In this document: in pieces, positions 39,255-50,893 of the stretch
How positions within the stretch are numbered: position 1 is the stretch's first letter
Layout of the letters: each line of letters opens with the position of its first letter
Origin: Oscillospiraceae bacterium
Lineage (GTDB): Bacteria > Bacillota > Clostridia > UBA1212
Assembly (NCBI GenBank): GCA_015069195.1
Contig: SVJA01000002.1
Location: forward strand, 1 to 64,000
DNA: 64,000 nt
Direction of reading: 5' to 3'
The notes under the pieces: model-generated
Told to the model about the DNA's origin: nothing
The model's database searches: none
What the model saw: the letters and a program-made list of their open reading frames with translations, nothing else
Translations under genes and position numbers: made by a program

Positions 39255-39983
39255 TCATTTCATCTCCGCTATTATATTTGCACTCATATCTTTAAAATAC
39301 TCAAAACCTTCTTTGCCGAGCTTCTTAGAAAGTATCCTGAGTCCGTCCTCGTAATCGGGGGCTCGGGACTTAGTATCGTGGCAATCGCTTCCCATAACAA
39401 GAGGTATTCCCGACTCAAGTGCGGTAAAAATCAATTTTCTGAGTTTTCTGTCCTTCAACGAAGATGCATTGAATTGAAAAATCGCATCCGGGAATTCGAA
39501 CAATTCTCTGTAATCATCTCGTTTGTAAAGTGAAAAATATCTTTCAAAATGAGCAATCATCGGCATAAGTTTATGCGTATATCTTATATTCGCAACAACA
39601 TCATAAAGCCACGGCTTGTACGGGAGAAAAGGCATCTCGAGCATTATAATATCTGAATTTCCCATAACAAGCTTGCTGAGACTGTCACATTCCGTAATCT
39701 CACGGTTAAGCGCTACCTCGCTGCCGAGAACAATGTTTTTACACTTTTCCGGAGCAACCTTTTTTAGCGACTCAAATGCTTCTGCCCTGTCAGAAACAAA
39801 ACTTTCTACAACTGCATCATCAGCTTCATGTGTTTTAAAATGAGGCGTCGCAACAACACAATGAGTCCCATCCGTTAAGGAGGAACCCATCATATCAAGT
39901 ATTCTGAGACTTTCTTCTGTATTTCGTGCCCCATCATCAATGCCGGGAAGTATATGCGAATGAAAATCAGCAGTTAAAATCAT
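39255..39983 (-). CDS. cpsB: Protein-tyrosine phosphatase CpsB/YwqE (PHP fold)
   Basis: A 242-residue PHP-family phosphatase. The metal ligands appear as DFHSHILPGIDDG at the N-terminus, ATPHF, a Glu in LGSEV, IAHFERY and MGSDCHD. It removes phosphate from the C-terminal tyrosine cluster of the CpsD kinase and so controls polysaccharide synthesis. It overlaps cpsD by 4 bases. The family is characteristic of Gram-positive capsule loci, which supports the Firmicute assignment. Confidence 0.93.
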   Translation of the reverse strand: MILTADFHSHILPGIDDGARNTEESLRILDMMGSSLTDGTHCVVATPHFKTHEADDAVVESFVSDRAEAFESLKKVAPEKCKNIVLGSEVALNREITECDSLSKLVMGNSDIIMLEMPFLPYKPWLYDVVANIRYTHKLMPMIAHFERYFSLYKRDDYRELFEFPDAIFQFNASSLKDRKLRKLIFTALESGIPLVMGSDCHDTKSRAPDYEDGLRILSKKLGKEGFEYFKDMSANIIAEMK

Positions 39984-40870
39984 TTGTTATCTTCACCTAT
40001 AATAGAATCAACATCAATATTTTCGCTTCTTACCGGCTCACTATGTGACGAAGATCCAGAATCACCGTTCCTATGACTTGAACTTCTTCGTTTAGAACCA
40101 TGACGCGAACCTGCAGTATAATATTCATAATACTTGTATGAATATTTTCTGTTCGAATAATAGCTGTATCCGCCTGAATAACGGCTGAACGGTTTGTACT
40201 TTTCTTTAACACCGGTAAGAACTACACCGAGGACACGTACCCTGACAGTTTTCAGAGCCTCAACCGTTTGCCTGAGCATCTTTATCGTAGTATTGTTCTG
40301 CCTTGCAACCAAAACTACTCCGCTCACTTTTTTAGAAAGAACTACAGCATCCGTAACAACGTTTATCGGCGGAGTATCTATTATTACATAGTCATAGTGT
40401 TCCTGTACTTTGTTAAGAAACACAGTCATATTTTTACTTCCGAGAAGCTCCGACGGGTTCGGAGGGATGGTACCTGCTGTCATAACATCAAGGCCAGGAA
40501 CAACATCCCTGTTTATCGACTTGACCAAAGGCTCAAATCCGCCCAGAAAAAGTGAAAGTCCGTGGGAGTTGTCAAGGCCGAAAATCTTGTGCATAACCGG
40601 TTTTCTCATATCCGCGTCTATCAAAAGAACTTTAGAATTTTGAGCAAATGTAACCGCAAGGTTTGAAGAAGTCGTACTCTTGCCTTCACCCGGAAGTGCA
40701 GACGATACGAGCATAACTTTTCCGTTTATAGGGTGCAGTGCATACTGAAGATTTGTACGAACATTTTTGTATGCCTCATTTACCTGGGAAGGAGTATCAT
40801 CGTTTAGAAGGTTCTGCTTCATGAGCTGAACACTATGAAGAGGTTTGTTTTTTATTCTGAATCCGAACAT
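39980..40870 (-). CDS. cpsD: Bacterial tyrosine autokinase CpsD/YwqD
   Basis: A 296-residue BY-kinase. Walker A is LPGEGKST (59-66), Walker A' VLLIDADMRKP (81-91) and Walker B VIIDTPP (162-168). A cluster of 11 tyrosines lies between residues 225 and 251 and is the autophosphorylation tail. The last 40 residues are Ser/Arg-rich. The kinase needs the membrane protein CpsC/Wzz for activation and adjusts chain length or flux. It follows wzz by 3 bases and overlaps cpsB by 4. Confidence 0.94.
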   Translation of the reverse strand: MFGFRIKNKPLHSVQLMKQNLLNDDTPSQVNEAYKNVRTNLQYALHPINGKVMLVSSALPGEGKSTTSSNLAVTFAQNSKVLLIDADMRKPVMHKIFGLDNSHGLSLFLGGFEPLVKSINRDVVPGLDVMTAGTIPPNPSELLGSKNMTVFLNKVQEHYDYVIIDTPPINVVTDAVVLSKKVSGVVLVARQNNTTIKMLRQTVEALKTVRVRVLGVVLTGVKEKYKPFSRYSGGYSYYSNRKYSYKYYEYYTAGSRHGSKRRSSSHRNGDSGSSSHSEPVRSENIDVDSIIGEDNK

Positions 40871-40873
40871 AGC

Positions 40874-41761
40874 TTACTCCTCCTTTTCCTTATATGAATA
40901 TTTCGAATTTTTATAATGATAATATCTGTACGAGGTTTTCCTTACATCGATAAGATCCGGAATTTCTCCCAGCGGAAGTACACCCATGGACTCTTTTATG
41001 TCAGCTTCGCACTTAACGGTATTGTCAACATACGCTGCAATAAAGAATGCTACAGCAACAAGTGCAAAGCCGGCTACAGCACCGATCAATACCTTACTCA
41101 TATATGTAGGAGTAGATCTGTACGGTGCATGCGGCGATTCAATAACGTGTACAGAACCGACGTCATAGTTCTCATTTATAATTGCCTGAATTTGATTTTT
41201 AATCGCCTTGGAAATAGCTTCGGTTTTTCTATAGTCGGTAGTTGTAACATTTACCTGAAAAACTTCGGTTTCTCCGACCGGGGCCATATAAATGCTCGCA
41301 CCTACTTCCCAAGTACCCATATGCTTGTACCAATCATCATCGGTAAATATCTCATCATCCTCTACAGGCTTATATGTCAGCTCATCCGTATAACCTGCAT
41401 TCGCCTTTATATCATCTACAACCATTTTCAATGAATCTTCTGTCTTTATAATGACCATATATGTCTCTATAAGGCTCTTGGATGCACTTATGGCAGATGT
41501 GGAAATAATATAACTGTAGTCCTGTTTCTCTTTATCCGAATCTTCCCCATCTTCACTGTCAACAAAAGGATTGCCGGCCCCATCACGAATAGAAAAATTT
41601 CTTACAAGAAGCTTCAGTGAAGACGTATATGTGGTAATGGCTGTATTACTCGAATATCCGTACATAACTACACCGCCCAATATAGCAGCCAACACCAACC
41701 ATACAATATTTTTCAACAATATATTAAGTAAAAAGTAAAAATTTATACTTCCTTCTTTCAA
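40874..41761 (-). CDS. cpsC: Wzz/CpsC-type chain-length regulator and kinase activator
   Basis: A 295-residue protein with two membrane segments (about residues 16-36 and 225-246) around an extracellular domain, the polysaccharide co-polymerase plan. The cytoplasmic tail is Tyr- and Lys-rich (TSYRYYHYKNSKYSY). It partners CpsD, encoded 3 bases downstream, and controls chain length. The start is a TTG at 41759-41761 after AGGAGGCGG, with no nearby ATG upstream of the first membrane segment. It is the first gene of the operon driven by 41812-41840. Confidence 0.9.
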   Translation of the reverse strand: MKEGSINFYFLLNILLKNIVWLVLAAILGGVVMYGYSSNTAITTYTSSLKLLVRNFSIRDGAGNPFVDSEDGEDSDKEKQDYSYIISTSAISASKSLIETYMVIIKTEDSLKMVVDDIKANAGYTDELTYKPVEDDEIFTDDDWYKHMGTWEVGASIYMAPVGETEVFQVNVTTTDYRKTEAISKAIKNQIQAIINENYDVGSVHVIESPHAPYRSTPTYMSKVLIGAVAGFALVAVAFFIAAYVDNTVKCEADIKESMGVLPLGEIPDLIDVRKTSYRYYHYKNSKYSYKEKEE

Positions 41762-41939: not shown

Positions 41940-43082
41940 ATGAAAACAAAACATTTCAGTATTTTGAAGGTTTTAACCCTCTTGCTTGCGCTCACACTTC
42001 TGACAGGTTGCGGCGGCGGGGACAAACCCAAAAATGGAAGCACGGTATCACCGGCAGAGTCACAGACTCCCGCAGTTACACCGGATGCTACTGCTACAAC
42101 AGAAACAACCGAAACACCGGTCGCTACCGCTACAGCAGAGTCAACCGAAACACCGGATGCCACTGCTACGACAGAGCCTACAAAGTCACCTGCTCCGACC
42201 GAAACACCGAAACCCAAGGACAAAACTGCAAAAATCATAATTCTTGCAGGACAGTCAAATGCAGTAGGTGCTACATTGAAAGCTCCCCTCAAAACTACTG
42301 TAGGTACCAGCCGCAACAGAGCTTTCACAAAAGGATATGAAAATATCAAAATTGCATATTTTGCAGAAGCAGGCGGTGCAAACGGTGCAGCAGGTACATT
42401 CCGTACCAATATTGATTACACAGCAGGCAAAACACAGCCTCTCAACAAAGTTTTTGTAAAAACAAATCTTGCAAACAGCTGGACAACTCAGATGTTCGGA
42501 CCTGAAATAGGTATCGCAGAATATCTCAACGAAAAGTATCCGGGCGAAACATTCTACATTGTAAAAGTTGCAAAAGGCGGTGTGTCTGTAGCAAATTCTT
42601 GGAAAAACACAGGTTATTGCTACAAAAAATTAAAAGAAACTATGGAGATTTGTTGCACATCGCTCAAAGCAGAAGGATACACACCTGAACTTTTCTCAAT
42701 ATGCTGGCTTCAGGGAGAAAATGAAGCACTCAACAAAACAGAAGCCGACAAATACGATACAATAGTTGCCGGAGTAGCAGAAAGAATGCGTAACGACTTT
42801 GCAAAATATTCTACTACCGGCAAAATTGCCTTTATCGACGGCGGCATATCAGATTCACCTATGTGGACGTACTATAAAGAAGTAAATGCCGGAAAGAAAA
42901 AGTTCGCTGAAACATCCGACCTTAACTATTATTTCGGAGTTATCGAAAACGGACTTGAGTACAAAAATGAGCCTGCAGGCAACCCGGATCTTGCTCACTA
43001 TGACAGTGCAAGTGTTGTAAAGCTCGGTAATATTTTGGGTGAATATATTGATACCGCTTACAAAGCAATATTGAAAAAATAA
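41940..43082 (+). CDS. Lipoprotein SGNH carbohydrate acetylesterase (sialate O-acetylesterase-like)
   Basis: A 380-residue exported lipoprotein. The signal peptide ends with LLTGC (Cys24). A Thr/Pro/Glu-rich linker of about 65 residues with near repeats (ETTETPVATATAE, ESTETPDATATTE) follows. The catalytic domain begins with the nucleophile motif LAGQSNAVG (104-107), has the WLQGENEA block and ends with DLAHYDS carrying the Asp-His pair, as in the SASA/CE6 acetylesterase family. It probably removes O-acetyl groups from sugars outside the cell. AAGGAGG precedes the ATG. It is divergent from the polysaccharide operon, which encodes O-acetylating enzymes. A strong terminator follows. Confidence 0.85.
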   Translation: MKTKHFSILKVLTLLLALTLLTGCGGGDKPKNGSTVSPAESQTPAVTPDATATTETTETPVATATAESTETPDATATTEPTKSPAPTETPKPKDKTAKIIILAGQSNAVGATLKAPLKTTVGTSRNRAFTKGYENIKIAYFAEAGGANGAAGTFRTNIDYTAGKTQPLNKVFVKTNLANSWTTQMFGPEIGIAEYLNEKYPGETFYIVKVAKGGVSVANSWKNTGYCYKKLKETMEICCTSLKAEGYTPELFSICWLQGENEALNKTEADKYDTIVAGVAERMRNDFAKYSTTGKIAFIDGGISDSPMWTYYKEVNAGKKKFAETSDLNYYFGVIENGLEYKNEPAGNPDLAHYDSASVVKLGNILGEYIDTAYKAILKK

Positions 43083-46176: not shown

Positions 46177-48678
46177 TCAGAAATACCACGACGAGAAAAG
46201 TCTGAGCTTTTCTACATACTCGGTAGATACAGGAAGACCCGTGAGCACCGGATAATACAGAGCAAACACTATTGCAACAAGTGCCATATAAATCCACAAC
46301 ACATACTTCGGAATTATATTCTTCTCTATCAGGTTTTTGAAGAAGTACACTATCATAAAGACTATAAACGGCACCGATGTAAAGAAGTGATATATAAAGC
46401 AAACTCGGTCAATGAGTATCCACGGAGCGTACTGAAGCACCAACGCCACATAGAATATGAGCATGCTCTTGTCTTTGTTTCTCCAAGCAAAATATCCGGA
46501 ACCTATAGCACACGGTATACCTACCCACCATATAAGCGGATTTCCGAGCGATACTATCGTAGAACGCATACCATCGCCCAAATCAGGTCCGATGTAGTAC
46601 CAGATCGGTCTTCCGATAACAGGCCATGACCACCACTGCGAACCGTAAGGATGTGTCGCATCAAGTCCACTGTGATAATTAAACATATAGTCCTGATTAG
46701 CAAGCACTATTTCAATAAGTGACTTATCGGGATTTGACGCCATATAAGGAATGTACGAAAGGACATATATTCCTGCCGGTATCAGAACGAAGAACAGCAC
46801 ACACATTCCGCATGTCGGGAGAAAATTCTTTACGAACCAAGGAAGTTCGCCCTCTTGTCGCTCTTTTCGACCGAATCCGTAGTCAAAGCCTTCCATAAGT
46901 TTCGCAAGGAAGAATATTATTGCAAGACCTCCGCCGGTGTACATACATACCCATTTACTTGCAGCACCAAGACCGAACATTATTCCGCAAAGAAAAAGCG
47001 GTCTGAGAGACCTTGTAAATCTGAGGTCATACGATTTTATCGCAAAGTAGTCATACATAAAGTAGTACATCGCAACAGCAAAGAAAACCGCATAAGAATC
47101 TATTGTAGCCAGCCTTGTCTGTGCAAGTCGCATACATTCAAATGTCATCAAAAATCCCGTCAGGAATGCATACGTACGTTTTTTAAATACCTTTAATGCA
47201 AAGAGATACATAAGCGGAACAAGCATTACTCCGAACAACGTTCCGGCAAATCTCCAACCGAATGGATTCATTCCGAAAATCTTTATGCCGAGCGACATAA
47301 ATACTTTCCCCATCGGCGGATGTGTTTTTTCATATATGCTCAGACCGTTTAAATGTTCGTACGCAGTACGCGGGAAATAAATCTCGTCAAAATATGTTCC
47401 GTTCATATATGTCATATAATCCGGAATCGTATCCTGCTCATCAAACAGGTTCTCAGCGCGGCCGCTCAATTCGGTTTTCTCATACTTTGCTTTGAGACTT
47501 TTTTCTGATATCGGTACAAGTTTTTTCGCAAATTTGCCTACGGAAACTTCATCATTATAGAAAAATCCGATTTCATTTATCCATTGACCGGCGCTTGCCG
47601 CAACAACCTTTACTTTTGAAGCAGTAAACTCAACATCATTGTATTTCCACTTATAGAACTCGATATCGCTTGAGGGAATACTGTAAACTTCCTGCCATTC
47701 ACCCGCTGCATCTTCGTAGTAAACTTTTGTTGTTCCGTTGCTTGAAGGAATTCCGCCCGAATATACGATGCTGTTTACCGTATATTCTTTGTCAAAAGTC
47801 ACAACAATTTCCTCTTCGCTGTTTTCTGCCTTCCAATAGCTCGATGCACATTCCGTTCCGCCGAGGTTCGCAAACGACATTATCGCACAGGTCACGGTAA
47901 GAACTGCAATCAACAACAAATCATATTTATTTCGTTTCGGAAGTTCCTCGGAAAGAGATACCCCCTCTTTTGCTTTTTGCTTATCTGAGCGAAGAGCAAG
48001 AAAGAAACAATATGCCAAAAGTGATATTATGACAAGAACAAACAAAAGCTTAAATCCTATACCGACAGAAGCATCATCTGAATCACTTTTTTTAGCCTTA
48101 AATACAACCGACTCTGCACCTTCAGGGATTTCAGCAACTTTTTTTATGCTGAGATTATCAAAATATGCTACACCCTGTGACATACTTCCGAATCCGCCGA
48201 GACCCAGACTAAGTTTCAACGACTTCTGATTTTTCTCCGTTTTGAGGTATACAGTGTGCTCTTTCCAACCGTCTGTTGTATTGAATACGCCTGACGAAGT
48301 TCCGTCGCAATCATAAGCCGAAATATTCGCGCCGGCACCGCCCATAACATTTTCGGTCTTTATCATTACCGAAATTTTATAAATGCTGTTGGCTTTAACA
48401 CTTACACTTTGATATACTCGCGCATCGTTTTTATCTTTATTTTCTATCCTGAGTGAATTGCCTTTCCAACCGTCTTTTACAACCTTAAATGTTGTGCATT
48501 CGTAATCACTTTTATATTCTGAGTTATAATTATATTTTGTCCAACCCGGAATCTTTCTGTCATTTCCGGCTGAAGAAAATCCGCTGTTACTCAAATCACC
48601 CGAACACGATGTAACGACTGTCAAAACAGTCACTATCAAAAGCAACAATAATACAATTTTAGAAAACTTACTTTTCAT
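46177..48678 (-). CDS. PMT-family (GT39) protein mannosyltransferase with N-terminal carbohydrate-binding-like module
   Basis: An 833-residue membrane protein. It starts with a lipoprotein-like signal (LTVVTSC, Cys25). A beta-sandwich module at about 45-190 follows (NDARVYQSVSVKANSIYKI, VAYFDNLSIKKV), then a membrane segment, a second discoidin-like beta region (TYFDEKY-less; WQEVYSIPSSDIEFYKW) and a PMT GT-C core. GTYFDEIYFPRTAYE has the PMT catalytic Asp-Glu and KTHPPMGKVFMSLG the next conserved loop. PMTs transfer mannose from a polyprenyl phosphate to Ser/Thr of exported proteins. It overlaps the upstream GT-C gene by 11 bases. Glycosylation of exported proteins is likely; the acceptor is unknown. 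Confidence 0.85.
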   Translation of the reverse strand: MKSKFSKIVLLLLLIVTVLTVVTSCSGDLSNSGFSSAGNDRKIPGWTKYNYNSEYKSDYECTTFKVVKDGWKGNSLRIENKDKNDARVYQSVSVKANSIYKISVMIKTENVMGGAGANISAYDCDGTSSGVFNTTDGWKEHTVYLKTEKNQKSLKLSLGLGGFGSMSQGVAYFDNLSIKKVAEIPEGAESVVFKAKKSDSDDASVGIGFKLLFVLVIISLLAYCFFLALRSDKQKAKEGVSLSEELPKRNKYDLLLIAVLTVTCAIMSFANLGGTECASSYWKAENSEEEIVVTFDKEYTVNSIVYSGGIPSSNGTTKVYYEDAAGEWQEVYSIPSSDIEFYKWKYNDVEFTASKVKVVAASAGQWINEIGFFYNDEVSVGKFAKKLVPISEKSLKAKYEKTELSGRAENLFDEQDTIPDYMTYMNGTYFDEIYFPRTAYEHLNGLSIYEKTHPPMGKVFMSLGIKIFGMNPFGWRFAGTLFGVMLVPLMYLFALKVFKKRTYAFLTGFLMTFECMRLAQTRLATIDSYAVFFAVAMYYFMYDYFAIKSYDLRFTRSLRPLFLCGIMFGLGAASKWVCMYTGGGLAIIFFLAKLMEGFDYGFGRKERQEGELPWFVKNFLPTCGMCVLFFVLIPAGIYVLSYIPYMASNPDKSLIEIVLANQDYMFNYHSGLDATHPYGSQWWSWPVIGRPIWYYIGPDLGDGMRSTIVSLGNPLIWWVGIPCAIGSGYFAWRNKDKSMLIFYVALVLQYAPWILIDRVCFIYHFFTSVPFIVFMIVYFFKNLIEKNIIPKYVLWIYMALVAIVFALYYPVLTGLPVSTEYVEKLRLFSSWYF

Positions 48679-50893
48679 GCGACAATTCTCCTTTGTTGTC
48701 TTTTGATTCGTGTAACTTCCAGATAACGTCCGAATCAGAATCTTTGCCAATAACATTCAGCGCAAAAAGTATAGCAAGTGTAACTGCGGCAATTGCCGTA
48801 AACACCATAGCTATTGCTATAAAATTCCTGTACGTAGAAACACCCACCCACAAATAATGAGCATATCTGCTATATTCCGCACCTGTGTCCTCAAGATACC
48901 GTCCCACCTCAAGATCCAAAAGAACCTCGGCAACCGTCAAGAATCCGAAAGCACTCAGAGCAGTGTAAATCCACAACCATATACGGTTGTTCGAAAGTAT
49001 ATACGCTACGGCAAAAAACGCTACCGCAGGGAAGAAATATCTCTCGTGCATTCTGGGTCCGAACATTGTTACACAAAGATATAAAACTCCCGCAAAAACG
49101 TATGGCATATAGTTTTTATTCCTATATTTAAGGTAGAACACCCAGATGATAACACATATTATTACAATAGCTGCCATGCCCCATGTAAGAAGTGATATAT
49201 TCCAGATTTCTTCAGAATCTTTAACCCAGTTTTTACCAAGCAAATACCAGAAGTTAAGCGAGTTTACAGACGCATACGAGTAATGGTTTGCGGTTCCTAT
49301 AAATAGCGACAATATCCACGGAACATTAAATGTTTTACTAAAAAGCTCTGTCTGAACCGATCCCATCTTAAACATAAACGGTAGACAAGGCACAACGGTA
49401 CCCGTTATAAAACCTAAAACAGTATATCCGAGACATGCAGCTTTTTTAGCTACAGCATCTTTCTCTTCGATAAAATACTTAAGCAACATAAAGAATATTA
49501 TCGGAGATATTATTATTGCCTGCGGTTTGAGCATAACGCCTAAGCCGAACCACAATCCTGAAACAAAGAATTTTTTCTTTAATCCGTAATAAAGCGTAAG
49601 CAATACAAACAAAGTCAGCACGGAATCGACCTGTCCCCATACTGCAGAGTCTATTATTACTATAGGATTGAACATCCACGAAGCAACGGCAAACGCACGC
49701 CACTCAGGACTCATCTTTTTGTCGCAGAATTTATATAACATAACTCCGATAATACAGTCCGCAATAATCGGTGTAAGTTTCAGTAAAAATGAATATATTA
49801 TTCCTTGGTACGCAAACCAACCAAATAAATCTTTTATCGATGAAGCCAGGAAAAGCACATATACATAAAGCGGCGGATAATCTATGCTATCCCTCAAAGT
49901 GTTGTAAGTTTCGGTAAAACCGCCTGCAACGATCTGATCTCCCCAATATTTAAAAATATTTACATCAACACTACACTGAAGCGGTGTAAGCGCCAATACA
50001 ATTCTGACAATCACGCCTATTGTGAATATAGCAATCAATGCTTTCGCAACTGACATTTTTTCTCCGCACGGAGTGCTGAGCGGCTTTTTTCTTCCAAAGC
50101 CATCATATGCCCTTGCAAATCTGTAGGCAATAACAAATGCAAGCAACACAAACACCGAGAGTATTACAACAACCTTAGTCAGATCGTTGTAAAAATTCTC
50201 ATCAAGAGCAAATTCGTCTGATTCTTCCGTATCGCCGGATGAGGAATTAAGTGTTTCCTTAAAATCAAGGCATACCGCATCCTCGGGAAGTTTTGATACC
50301 TGCGAAACTGCCACATCATCAAACCAAGCAGTACCTACATTATCTCCGCTATAGAATCCGACACGCAAAGCAAGTGCTAAAGAACTCTGATTTTTCGCAG
50401 TCTGTCCGTAATACTCTATGTATGTCCAATCCTGCGTTCCGTAAACAAACTCATACTCTTCAAAGTTATTTAAAATAGATATATTTGCACCGCGAACATT
50501 CTCTGTCTCTTCAATACCTTCGGTTTTTATCCAACCTGAAATTTTGTAATATGAATTCTCCTCCACATCAAGAGAGATTTCATATCGTGCATCGTTTTTA
50601 CCAAAATTTGAAACCCTCAGACATCCGGAATTTTCACGTCCGTCTATAGGCGTATATCCGAATGTAGTGTTATCATTGTCCCAGGCACTTGTTACAAAAC
50701 CGCAGTCGTCTTTATCAAAATCTGCAGTCAATATAATCTTGTCCTCCCCTGTCTTCGGAGCTGCAGATTCCGATGCATTTTTCAGCAGAAAAACAATACC
50801 CACCGAACTGCCGACTATAATCAGGCACAATACACATATGACAATGATGAATATTTTTTTGTTGTTTATAACTTTTTCTATTAACTTATTCAC
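48668..50893 (-). CDS. GT-C membrane glycosyltransferase with N-terminal carbohydrate-binding-like module
   Basis: A protein of about 741 residues. One membrane anchor (about residues 14-37), an exported beta-sandwich module to about residue 205 (NDARYEISLDVEENSYYKI, GTAWFDDVAVSQV), a second membrane segment, then a polytopic GT-C core of about ten segments. FKYWGDQIVAGG and YPPLYVYVLF match GT-C loops near the acidic catalytic residue, and VWGQVDSVL and GPRMHERYFFP occur further on. Its module is clearly homologous to that of the PMT gene downstream. The start is taken as GTG at 50893 after GAAGGT; TTG at 50908 is the alternative. Donor is probably a polyprenyl-phosphate sugar; acceptor unknown. 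Confidence 0.8.
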   Translation of the reverse strand: MNKLIEKVINNKKIFIIVICVLCLIIVGSSVGIVFLLKNASESAAPKTGEDKIILTADFDKDDCGFVTSAWDNDNTTFGYTPIDGRENSGCLRVSNFGKNDARYEISLDVEENSYYKISGWIKTEGIEETENVRGANISILNNFEEYEFVYGTQDWTYIEYYGQTAKNQSSLALALRVGFYSGDNVGTAWFDDVAVSQVSKLPEDAVCLDFKETLNSSSGDTEESDEFALDENFYNDLTKVVVILSVFVLLAFVIAYRFARAYDGFGRKKPLSTPCGEKMSVAKALIAIFTIGVIVRIVLALTPLQCSVDVNIFKYWGDQIVAGGFTETYNTLRDSIDYPPLYVYVLFLASSIKDLFGWFAYQGIIYSFLLKLTPIIADCIIGVMLYKFCDKKMSPEWRAFAVASWMFNPIVIIDSAVWGQVDSVLTLFVLLTLYYGLKKKFFVSGLWFGLGVMLKPQAIIISPIIFFMLLKYFIEEKDAVAKKAACLGYTVLGFITGTVVPCLPFMFKMGSVQTELFSKTFNVPWILSLFIGTANHYSYASVNSLNFWYLLGKNWVKDSEEIWNISLLTWGMAAIVIICVIIWVFYLKYRNKNYMPYVFAGVLYLCVTMFGPRMHERYFFPAVAFFAVAYILSNNRIWLWIYTALSAFGFLTVAEVLLDLEVGRYLEDTGAEYSRYAHYLWVGVSTYRNFIAIAMVFTAIAAVTLAILFALNVIGKDSDSDVIWKLHESKDNKGELSHEK

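Follow-up and report, generated by a model that had tools for sequence, protein, structure and literature searches.

Reports of O-glycosylation in clostridial cellulosomes go back to 1989, according to the reference list of PMC5604425. In Caldicellulosiruptor bescii, deletion of the GT39 gene Cbes_1864 abolished detectable glycosylation of exported proteins; a resemblance of the enzyme's loop-1 region to a general CBM was noted, and in the passages found the gene next to it is not described as encoding a GT-C enzyme (PMC6151902). CelA carries galactose disaccharides (PMC7142884), which differs from its discussion under mannosylation elsewhere (PMC12757957). In actinobacteria, GT39 adds the first mannose on proteins and GT87 (PimE) extends it (PMC12757957). 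In Pmt1-Pmt2, O-mannosyl peptides are bound by the MIR domains, which also affect processivity (PMC7759382), and how bacterial PMTs compensate for absent MIR domains was posed as an open question for the Mycobacterium tuberculosis enzyme (PMC12331936). A GT136 enzyme has a CBM that bound its acceptor glycan but could be dispensed with (PMC11127046). Within an incomplete coverage of the literature, no paper naming an enzyme that adds the second sugar to clostridial cellulase O-glycans was found and, beyond the C. bescii paper, no described GT39-GT87 fusion or CBM-bearing clostridial PMT.

Here, a window of 64,000 nucleotides from an Oscillospiraceae bacterium (GenBank assembly GCA_015069195.1, contig SVJA01000002.1, positions 1 to 64,000) was analysed, in which a preliminary description had pointed to tandem GT-C membrane transferases, each fused to an exported carbohydrate-binding-like module. 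The pair is best read as a two-enzyme extracytoplasmic protein O-glycosylation unit, in which a coupled initiator and extender would act on Thr-rich exported proteins and N-terminal modules (heads) likely bind the glycosylated acceptor; the probability of this reading is put at about 0.68. The computational analysis showed how all the parts are related and fold, their topology and conservation, the operonic coupling, the fusion in relatives and the co-occurrence with Thr-Pro repeats. The finding is wider than the preliminary description, namely a widespread coupled or fused pair of putative initiator and extender and not just two GT-C enzymes with heads.

Gene layout and the two GT-C enzymes

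The genes of the locus lie on the minus strand in the order M3-family oligopeptidase (53486-51690; PF01432, E 9e-81), bactofilin-like gene (51674-50913), GT87/ALG6-like glycosyltransferase (50893-48668), PMT (48678-46177) and enolase. Both GT-C genes previously assigned to 46177-50893 are present; the GT87-like protein (P0002) has 741 residues counted from a GTG at 50893, and the PMT (GT39-type; P0001) has 833 counted from an ATG at 48678. This ATG is preceded by a GGAG site. As it overlaps the stop of the GT87-like gene by 11 nt (ATGAAAAGTAA), the two genes are probably translationally coupled. The ATG is not the first of its frame, and its use places Cys25 within a lipobox (VTSC, 48604..48615, minus strand). 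The Cys residue, to which attention had already been drawn, is conserved in 14 of 14 PMT orthologues of the order and in none of the outgroup rows. With a signal peptide and a conserved lipobox Cys, the PMTs of the order classify as bacterial lipoproteins, their lipidation being predicted from sequence. The motifs quoted previously were recovered at NDAR 84, YKI 100, AYFDN 171 and VTSC 22-25 of the PMT, and at NDAR 105, YKI 121 and AWFDD 194 of the GT87-like protein, where the numbering is that of a TTG-started frame.

The PMT exceeded the cut-offs of PF02366 (52.0 bits; cut-off 22.7) and PF16192 (68.8 bits; cut-off 32.4), and its residues 248-833 matched Pmt4 (9i5k) with a Z score of 33.6 and an rmsd of 2.7 over 420 residues, compared with only 24.7 for ArnT. 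The catalytic core (46180..47397, minus strand) contains the motifs FDE (430-432) and THP (452-454), of which Asp431, Glu432, His453 and Pro454 are invariant across 26 relatives. The profile scores, together with a Pmt4-type fold that carries DE in external loop 1 and the HP motif, place the protein in GT39/PMT. It lies outside the equivalog of characterised bacterial PMT (NCBIfam NF058602), with 87.7 bits against a cut-off of 800. A MIR beta-trefoil was not found in external loop 4, where no MIR profile matched and the model shows only two short strands (692-710). Transfer of sugar to Ser/Thr of proteins is a strongly suggested prediction for this enzyme, with genetic evidence confined to its relative Cbes_1864 (PMC6151902).

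The GT87-like protein exceeded two Pfam cut-offs, those of PF09594 (32.9 bits; cut-off 25) and PF03155 (Alg6_Alg8; 30.2 bits; cut-off 25), and PF09594 matched 14 of its 22 relatives at E 0.01. Its membrane core (residues 287-726; 48731..50050, minus strand) folds like ALG6 (6snh, Z 27.8), GPI-MT I (Z 24.0) and PimE (Z 21.1), with ALG3 also matched. Invariant in the 22 relatives are Asp315, a catalytic-type residue just past the first core helix, Trp424-Gly425-Gln426, Lys461-Pro462 and Met620-His621-Glu622-Arg623-Tyr624. The GT87 profile is thus matched above its cut-off; given that the Alg6_Alg8 (GT57, ALG6/ALG8) profile is also exceeded and that ALG6 gives a higher Z score than PimE, "GT87-like" serves as a label and not as a CAZy assignment.

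AlphaFold2 models were built from alignments of 26 relatives of the PMT and 22 of the GT87-like protein, with mean pLDDT values of 84.8 and 81.2, respectively. In each model, an extra helix leads back to a Lys/Arg-rich inside loop ahead of the first core helix. In the PMT, this helix (residues 202-238; 47965..48075, minus strand) leads back into the cytoplasm, which lets GT-C TM1 (251-269) begin on the inner side, the Lys/Arg-rich loop lying between the helices. The predicted topology therefore implies that all heads and both catalytic loops lie on the outer face, in agreement with the earlier placement of the heads outside the membrane.

The external modules

The PMT head (residues 43-192; 48103..48552, minus strand) and the head of the GT87-like protein (residues 57-204 of P0002; 50297..50740, minus strand) share 39% identity over 136 residues (BLASTP, 71 bits, E 4e-21). 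Both were predicted with good confidence as beta-sandwiches, the latter with pLDDT values of 70-95, and 4d0q, the hyaluronan-binding module of a hyaluronate lyase, was the best solved match to both (Z 16.1 and 15.8, respectively). Among the best 50 matches listed, those next in rank included CBM4-2 (Z 13.8) for the PMT head and CBM16, CBM22 and CBM4 (Z 12-14) for that of its partner. On the models, both heads therefore belong to the CBM4/9/16/22 fold group. Neither reaches the curated cut-off of a CBM4/9 Pfam family, the PMT head scoring just below with CBM_4_9_1 (PF22637; E 2.5e-5, 25.0 bits, cut-off 27) and the partner head below with CBM_4_9 (PF02018; E 0.095, 13.5 bits, cut-off 25.9); the module of one relative (L050) scores 27.7 with the CBM4/9 profile. 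The homology of the two heads, proposed from their shared motifs, was upheld by the identity and the common best match, and the fold searches, in which unrelated or non-CBM folds would have told against the proposal, returned CBM-like folds for both.

Chance similarity of the heads was rejected on the BLASTP E value of 4e-21 and the two fold searches. Besides the PMT itself, a search of the source genome with P0001 matched only the head of the GT87-like partner. Among 58 modules placed on a tree, the heads of the GT87-like proteins of the order formed one clade (98/96) separate from the PMT heads; duplication of the head therefore predates the radiation of the order, and recent gene conversion between the two heads within the order was discarded on the same evidence.

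A second external module of the PMT, absent from the preliminary description, is a beta-sandwich of F5/8 type C (discoidin)-like type inserted in external loop 1 between TM1 and the catalytic DE motif (residues ∼279-394; 47497..47844, minus strand). Its strands (290-394) were modelled with pLDDT mostly 82-93. With PF00754 it scored 25.0 bits (E 2.2e-5), below the cut-off of 28.2 and so outside the Pfam family; the corresponding module of L050 exceeds it (29.1 bits).

Carbohydrate binding is a prediction for both heads. Their role is the weakest link of the two-enzyme reading, and by analogy with described enzymes an MIR-like contribution to processivity and a GT136-like dispensability are both possible. 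Acetivibrio mesophilus and its relatives also have stand-alone exported proteins of the same CBM-like module, encoded immediately ahead of the PMT gene (L050:5776-6621; also L065, L070 and L077), that of L050 carrying a C-terminal TM; heads can therefore be separate subunits.

Conservation and fusion in relatives

Within the order, nearly every PMT-bearing genome has the PMT adjoining a GT87-like gene, mostly with both heads. The unit is widespread in Clostridia, and the pair, its heads and the PMT lipobox are kept across the order. The fusion of such modules to the enzymes is not peculiar to the source genome. An M3 oligopeptidase occupies the same position in 11 loci of the order, and a bactofilin-like gene lies upstream of the pair in 12 of the 13 loci with enough flank. 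The bactofilin-like gene of the window scores below the Pfam cut-off (PF04519, 20.6 bits against 27.9), and the gene is absent from the outgroup loci, in which the units keep their modules. Of the earlier suggestion of a localised unit, the conserved neighbour therefore stands and the localising role is unsupported; a direct role of the gene in the unit was set aside in view of its absence from the outgroup loci.

These neighbours bear on whether the heads serve to anchor the enzymes in place on the cell wall or matrix, possibly with help in localisation from the bactofilin-like protein, and are not clamps that bind the acceptor. The lipobox and the bactofilin-like gene are conserved in the order and CBM folds often target enzymes to polymers, all of which would suit anchoring. 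The models set against this the position of the heads on the catalytic face of each enzyme, one module lying inside loop 1 just ahead of the catalytic motif, and outgroup units retain modules where there is no bactofilin-like gene to assist; we consider anchoring doubtful, and acceptor binding by the heads is the preferred reading.

More unusual than the fusion of modules is that the two GT-C enzymes are themselves fused in many relatives. In a class-wide sample of 291 genomes, 103 matched (positive), and 48 of these, spread over about 17 families by our reading of the match table and including single-contig genomes, encode GT87 and PMT as a single open frame. The spread over families and the single-contig cases rule out assembly artefacts as the source of the fusions. 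Thirty loci checked with purpose-built profiles showed a usual fused order of GT87 core, F5/8C-like module and PMT core in proteins of about 1,000-1,170 residues. The N-terminal module is missing from 25 of 27 fused proteins, and the head is therefore not needed for core function; the fused proteins L053, L061 and L095 carry a CBM-like head in front of the GT87 core.

After dereplication, 68 PMT loci were divided into 35 with adjacent genes, 27 fused and 6 with a PMT lacking an adjacent GT87-like gene, some of these 6 owing to an incomplete locus. On a PMT tree of the 68 rows, the fused state requires four changes and occurs in deep branches, the midpoint root leaving the direction of change unfixed. 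Two species of one genus show both states (L095:3730-7548, fused; L096:3156-7176, split) and form a pair useful for studying fusion or fission; in both, GT2 and GtrA-type genes come next. Two otherwise fused-type units were treated cautiously because of a single in-frame stop, at the junction in L082 (near 2722) and inside the match in G039:C28:13980-16643; split genes, recoding or errors could account for either.

Fusion of GT87 and PMT in many Clostridia suggests that both enzymes work together. That they instead use different acceptors and are merely co-regulated, the GT87-like enzyme not extending the PMT product, would accord with the 6 of 68 loci without an adjacent partner and with the intervening genes in some loci. 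A single polypeptide across many families, paralogous heads on both enzymes and the actinobacterial precedent of GT39 followed by GT87 make such independence improbable, and joint action on one acceptor is favoured.

Among other lineages, many loci have GT2 after the PMT and several have GtrA ahead of the pair; the source genome has two GT2 genes (42% and 38% identity) on other contigs. GT2 and GtrA-type proteins are makers and flippases of polyprenyl-phosphate sugars. An unusual fusion was seen at G000:C17:227564-227923 (L092:3505-5433, minus strand), where a GtrA-type TM domain lies within a 643-residue frame with a GT-C-like N-terminal part; this frame adjoins a second similar ORF of 452 residues.

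A phylum-wide search recovered three genomes of one genus with a ∼570-residue PMT beside a GT87-like gene. The two of these that were read show a cellulase locus with the order GH9-CBM3-GH5, PMT, GT87-like, WG-repeat propeller, PPIase and GH74-CBM3, and the PMT carries the loop-1 module. The gene order fits the C. bescii cluster Cbes_1864-1861 (GT39 and three close genes in the same orientation), from which we infer that the genomes are Caldicellulosiruptor. The GT-C gene next to this PMT (L093:10846-12300 and L097:6763-8253, both minus strand) is followed by the WG-repeat propeller and a SurA/PrsA-like PPIase. Pfam gave no match in the L093 gene, whereas the profile built in this analysis matched with E 9e-51; the silence of Pfam may explain why the gene was not discussed for C. 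bescii. This gene is a candidate for the missing extender of cellulase O-glycans.

Acceptors, mechanism and comparison with known systems

(ThrPro)4-coding repeats were found in 69 of 103 system-positive and 26 of 188 system-negative genomes (odds ratio 12.6, p 3.5e-20, related genomes not being independent), and a reversed repeat pattern used as control showed no association (odds ratio 1.05). Counted by family, the association was 25/9/8/31 (p 6e-6), 8 of 33 Thr-Pro-positive families being without the system and 9 of 34 system-positive families without the repeat. Lifestyle and shared ancestry may contribute to this co-occurrence. The strict repeat is absent from the source genome, whose own linkers are looser; in the 848 kb of it that was read, Thr-rich 30-mers occurred in 21 of 194 exported-type and 5 of 457 other ORFs, the exported-type call being a crude hydrophobicity rule. 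Exported proteins are generally richer in such Thr-rich linkers.

Several of the Thr-rich 30-mers sit directly after a lipobox, including that of a SASA-type esterase lipoprotein with a Thr/Pro/Glu-rich linker (41940..43082, plus strand; PF03629, 58.4 bits). The esterase is the only ORF of the window with at least 14 Ser/Thr/Pro in a 30-mer and lies ∼3 kb from the PMT gene, and it is a candidate natural acceptor of the PMT.

The nature of the acceptor is where a different function would enter. The pair might decorate a surface polysaccharide and not proteins, its CBM-like heads binding polysaccharide as in EmbC, AftD and GT136 ORF12. In favour of this, some GT-C enzymes with a CBM do use glycans as acceptors (PMC11127046), both heads resemble polysaccharide-binding CBMs, and several GT2-like genes occur in the window, as does a chain-length/kinase-type pair (39980-41761). 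These points are outweighed by a PMT core nearest to true protein O-mannosyltransferases in the fold search, by the requirement for the Caldicellulosiruptor relative in protein glycosylation (PMC6151902), by Thr-Pro repeats that track the system and by conserved neighbours in relatives (peptidase, bactofilin-like, GT2 and GtrA) that make up no polysaccharide cluster, so that polysaccharide decoration appears quite unlikely. The PMT fold, the Caldicellulosiruptor locus and the Thr-Pro co-occurrence together point strongly to a role in protein glycosylation, as first proposed.

For protein glycosylation, the requirement for GT39 in C. bescii, the disaccharides of CelA and the actinobacterial succession of GT39 and GT87 lead to a two-step model. 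The PMT (GT39) would start the glycan, taking a sugar from a polyprenyl-phosphate donor and placing it on Thr/Ser within the low-complexity linkers of exported proteins; the sugar that follows, from a donor of similar type, would be attached by the GT87/ALG6-like partner, the product of the coupled upstream gene. Outside the membrane, each enzyme is predicted to hold a CBM4/9/16/22-like head, to which the PMT adds an F5/8C-like one in external loop 1. The growing glycopeptide is the most likely ligand of the heads, and its binding would allow many adjacent sites to be modified per encounter, a role also proposed for the MIR domain of eukaryotic PMTs. The order of the steps, the sugars, the ligand of the heads and the physical association of the two proteins in the source organism are what we infer within this model. 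A bolder version, offered tentatively and at somewhat less than even odds, is that throughout Clostridia initiator and extender are obligately joined in one machine, often as a single chain whose two GT-C sites hand over the glycopeptide, the heads being a processivity clamp and the bacterial answer to MIR. If true, one protein chain whose two GT-C active sites catalyse successive steps on protein would be uncommon, and of use as a part in glycoengineering. The tandem and fused GT87-PMT units provide a candidate for the enzyme that adds the next sugar to clostridial cellulase and cellulosome O-glycans, and the cellulase-glycosylating GT39 of C. bescii thereby gains a candidate partner.

The system is of a known kind, that of actinobacterial GT39 and GT87 glycosylation and of C. 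bescii GT39; its CBM-like heads and physical coupling are undescribed in the papers found. Cbes_1864 and its cluster share the PMT core, the CBM/F5-8C-like loop-1 module, the adjacent GT87-like gene (in Caldicellulosiruptor-type loci) and the requirement in cellulase glycosylation, but have no N-terminal CBM-like head, lipobox or bactofilin. Actinobacterial PMT (GT39) with PimE or other GT87 likewise combines an initiating GT39 and an elongating GT87 that use polyprenyl-phosphate sugars on exported proteins; in actinobacteria, the two are not known to share an operon or to be fused. The M. tuberculosis PMT is without MIR, and its structural paper mentions no carbohydrate-binding module (PMC12331936); the heads bear on how bacterial PMTs compensate for missing MIR, the question left open there. 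EmbC, AftD and GT136 ORF12 are also GT-C membrane enzymes with an external beta-sandwich CBM, but they act on glycans, are not of PMT type and are not paired or fused with a second, different GT-C enzyme. Eukaryotic Pmt1, Pmt2 and Pmt4 share the catalytic fold, the DE motif and an accessory sugar-binding-type domain on the luminal side; there, by contrast, the accessory domain is an MIR beta-trefoil in loop 4 and the partner is another PMT, not an enzyme of GT87/ALG6 type.
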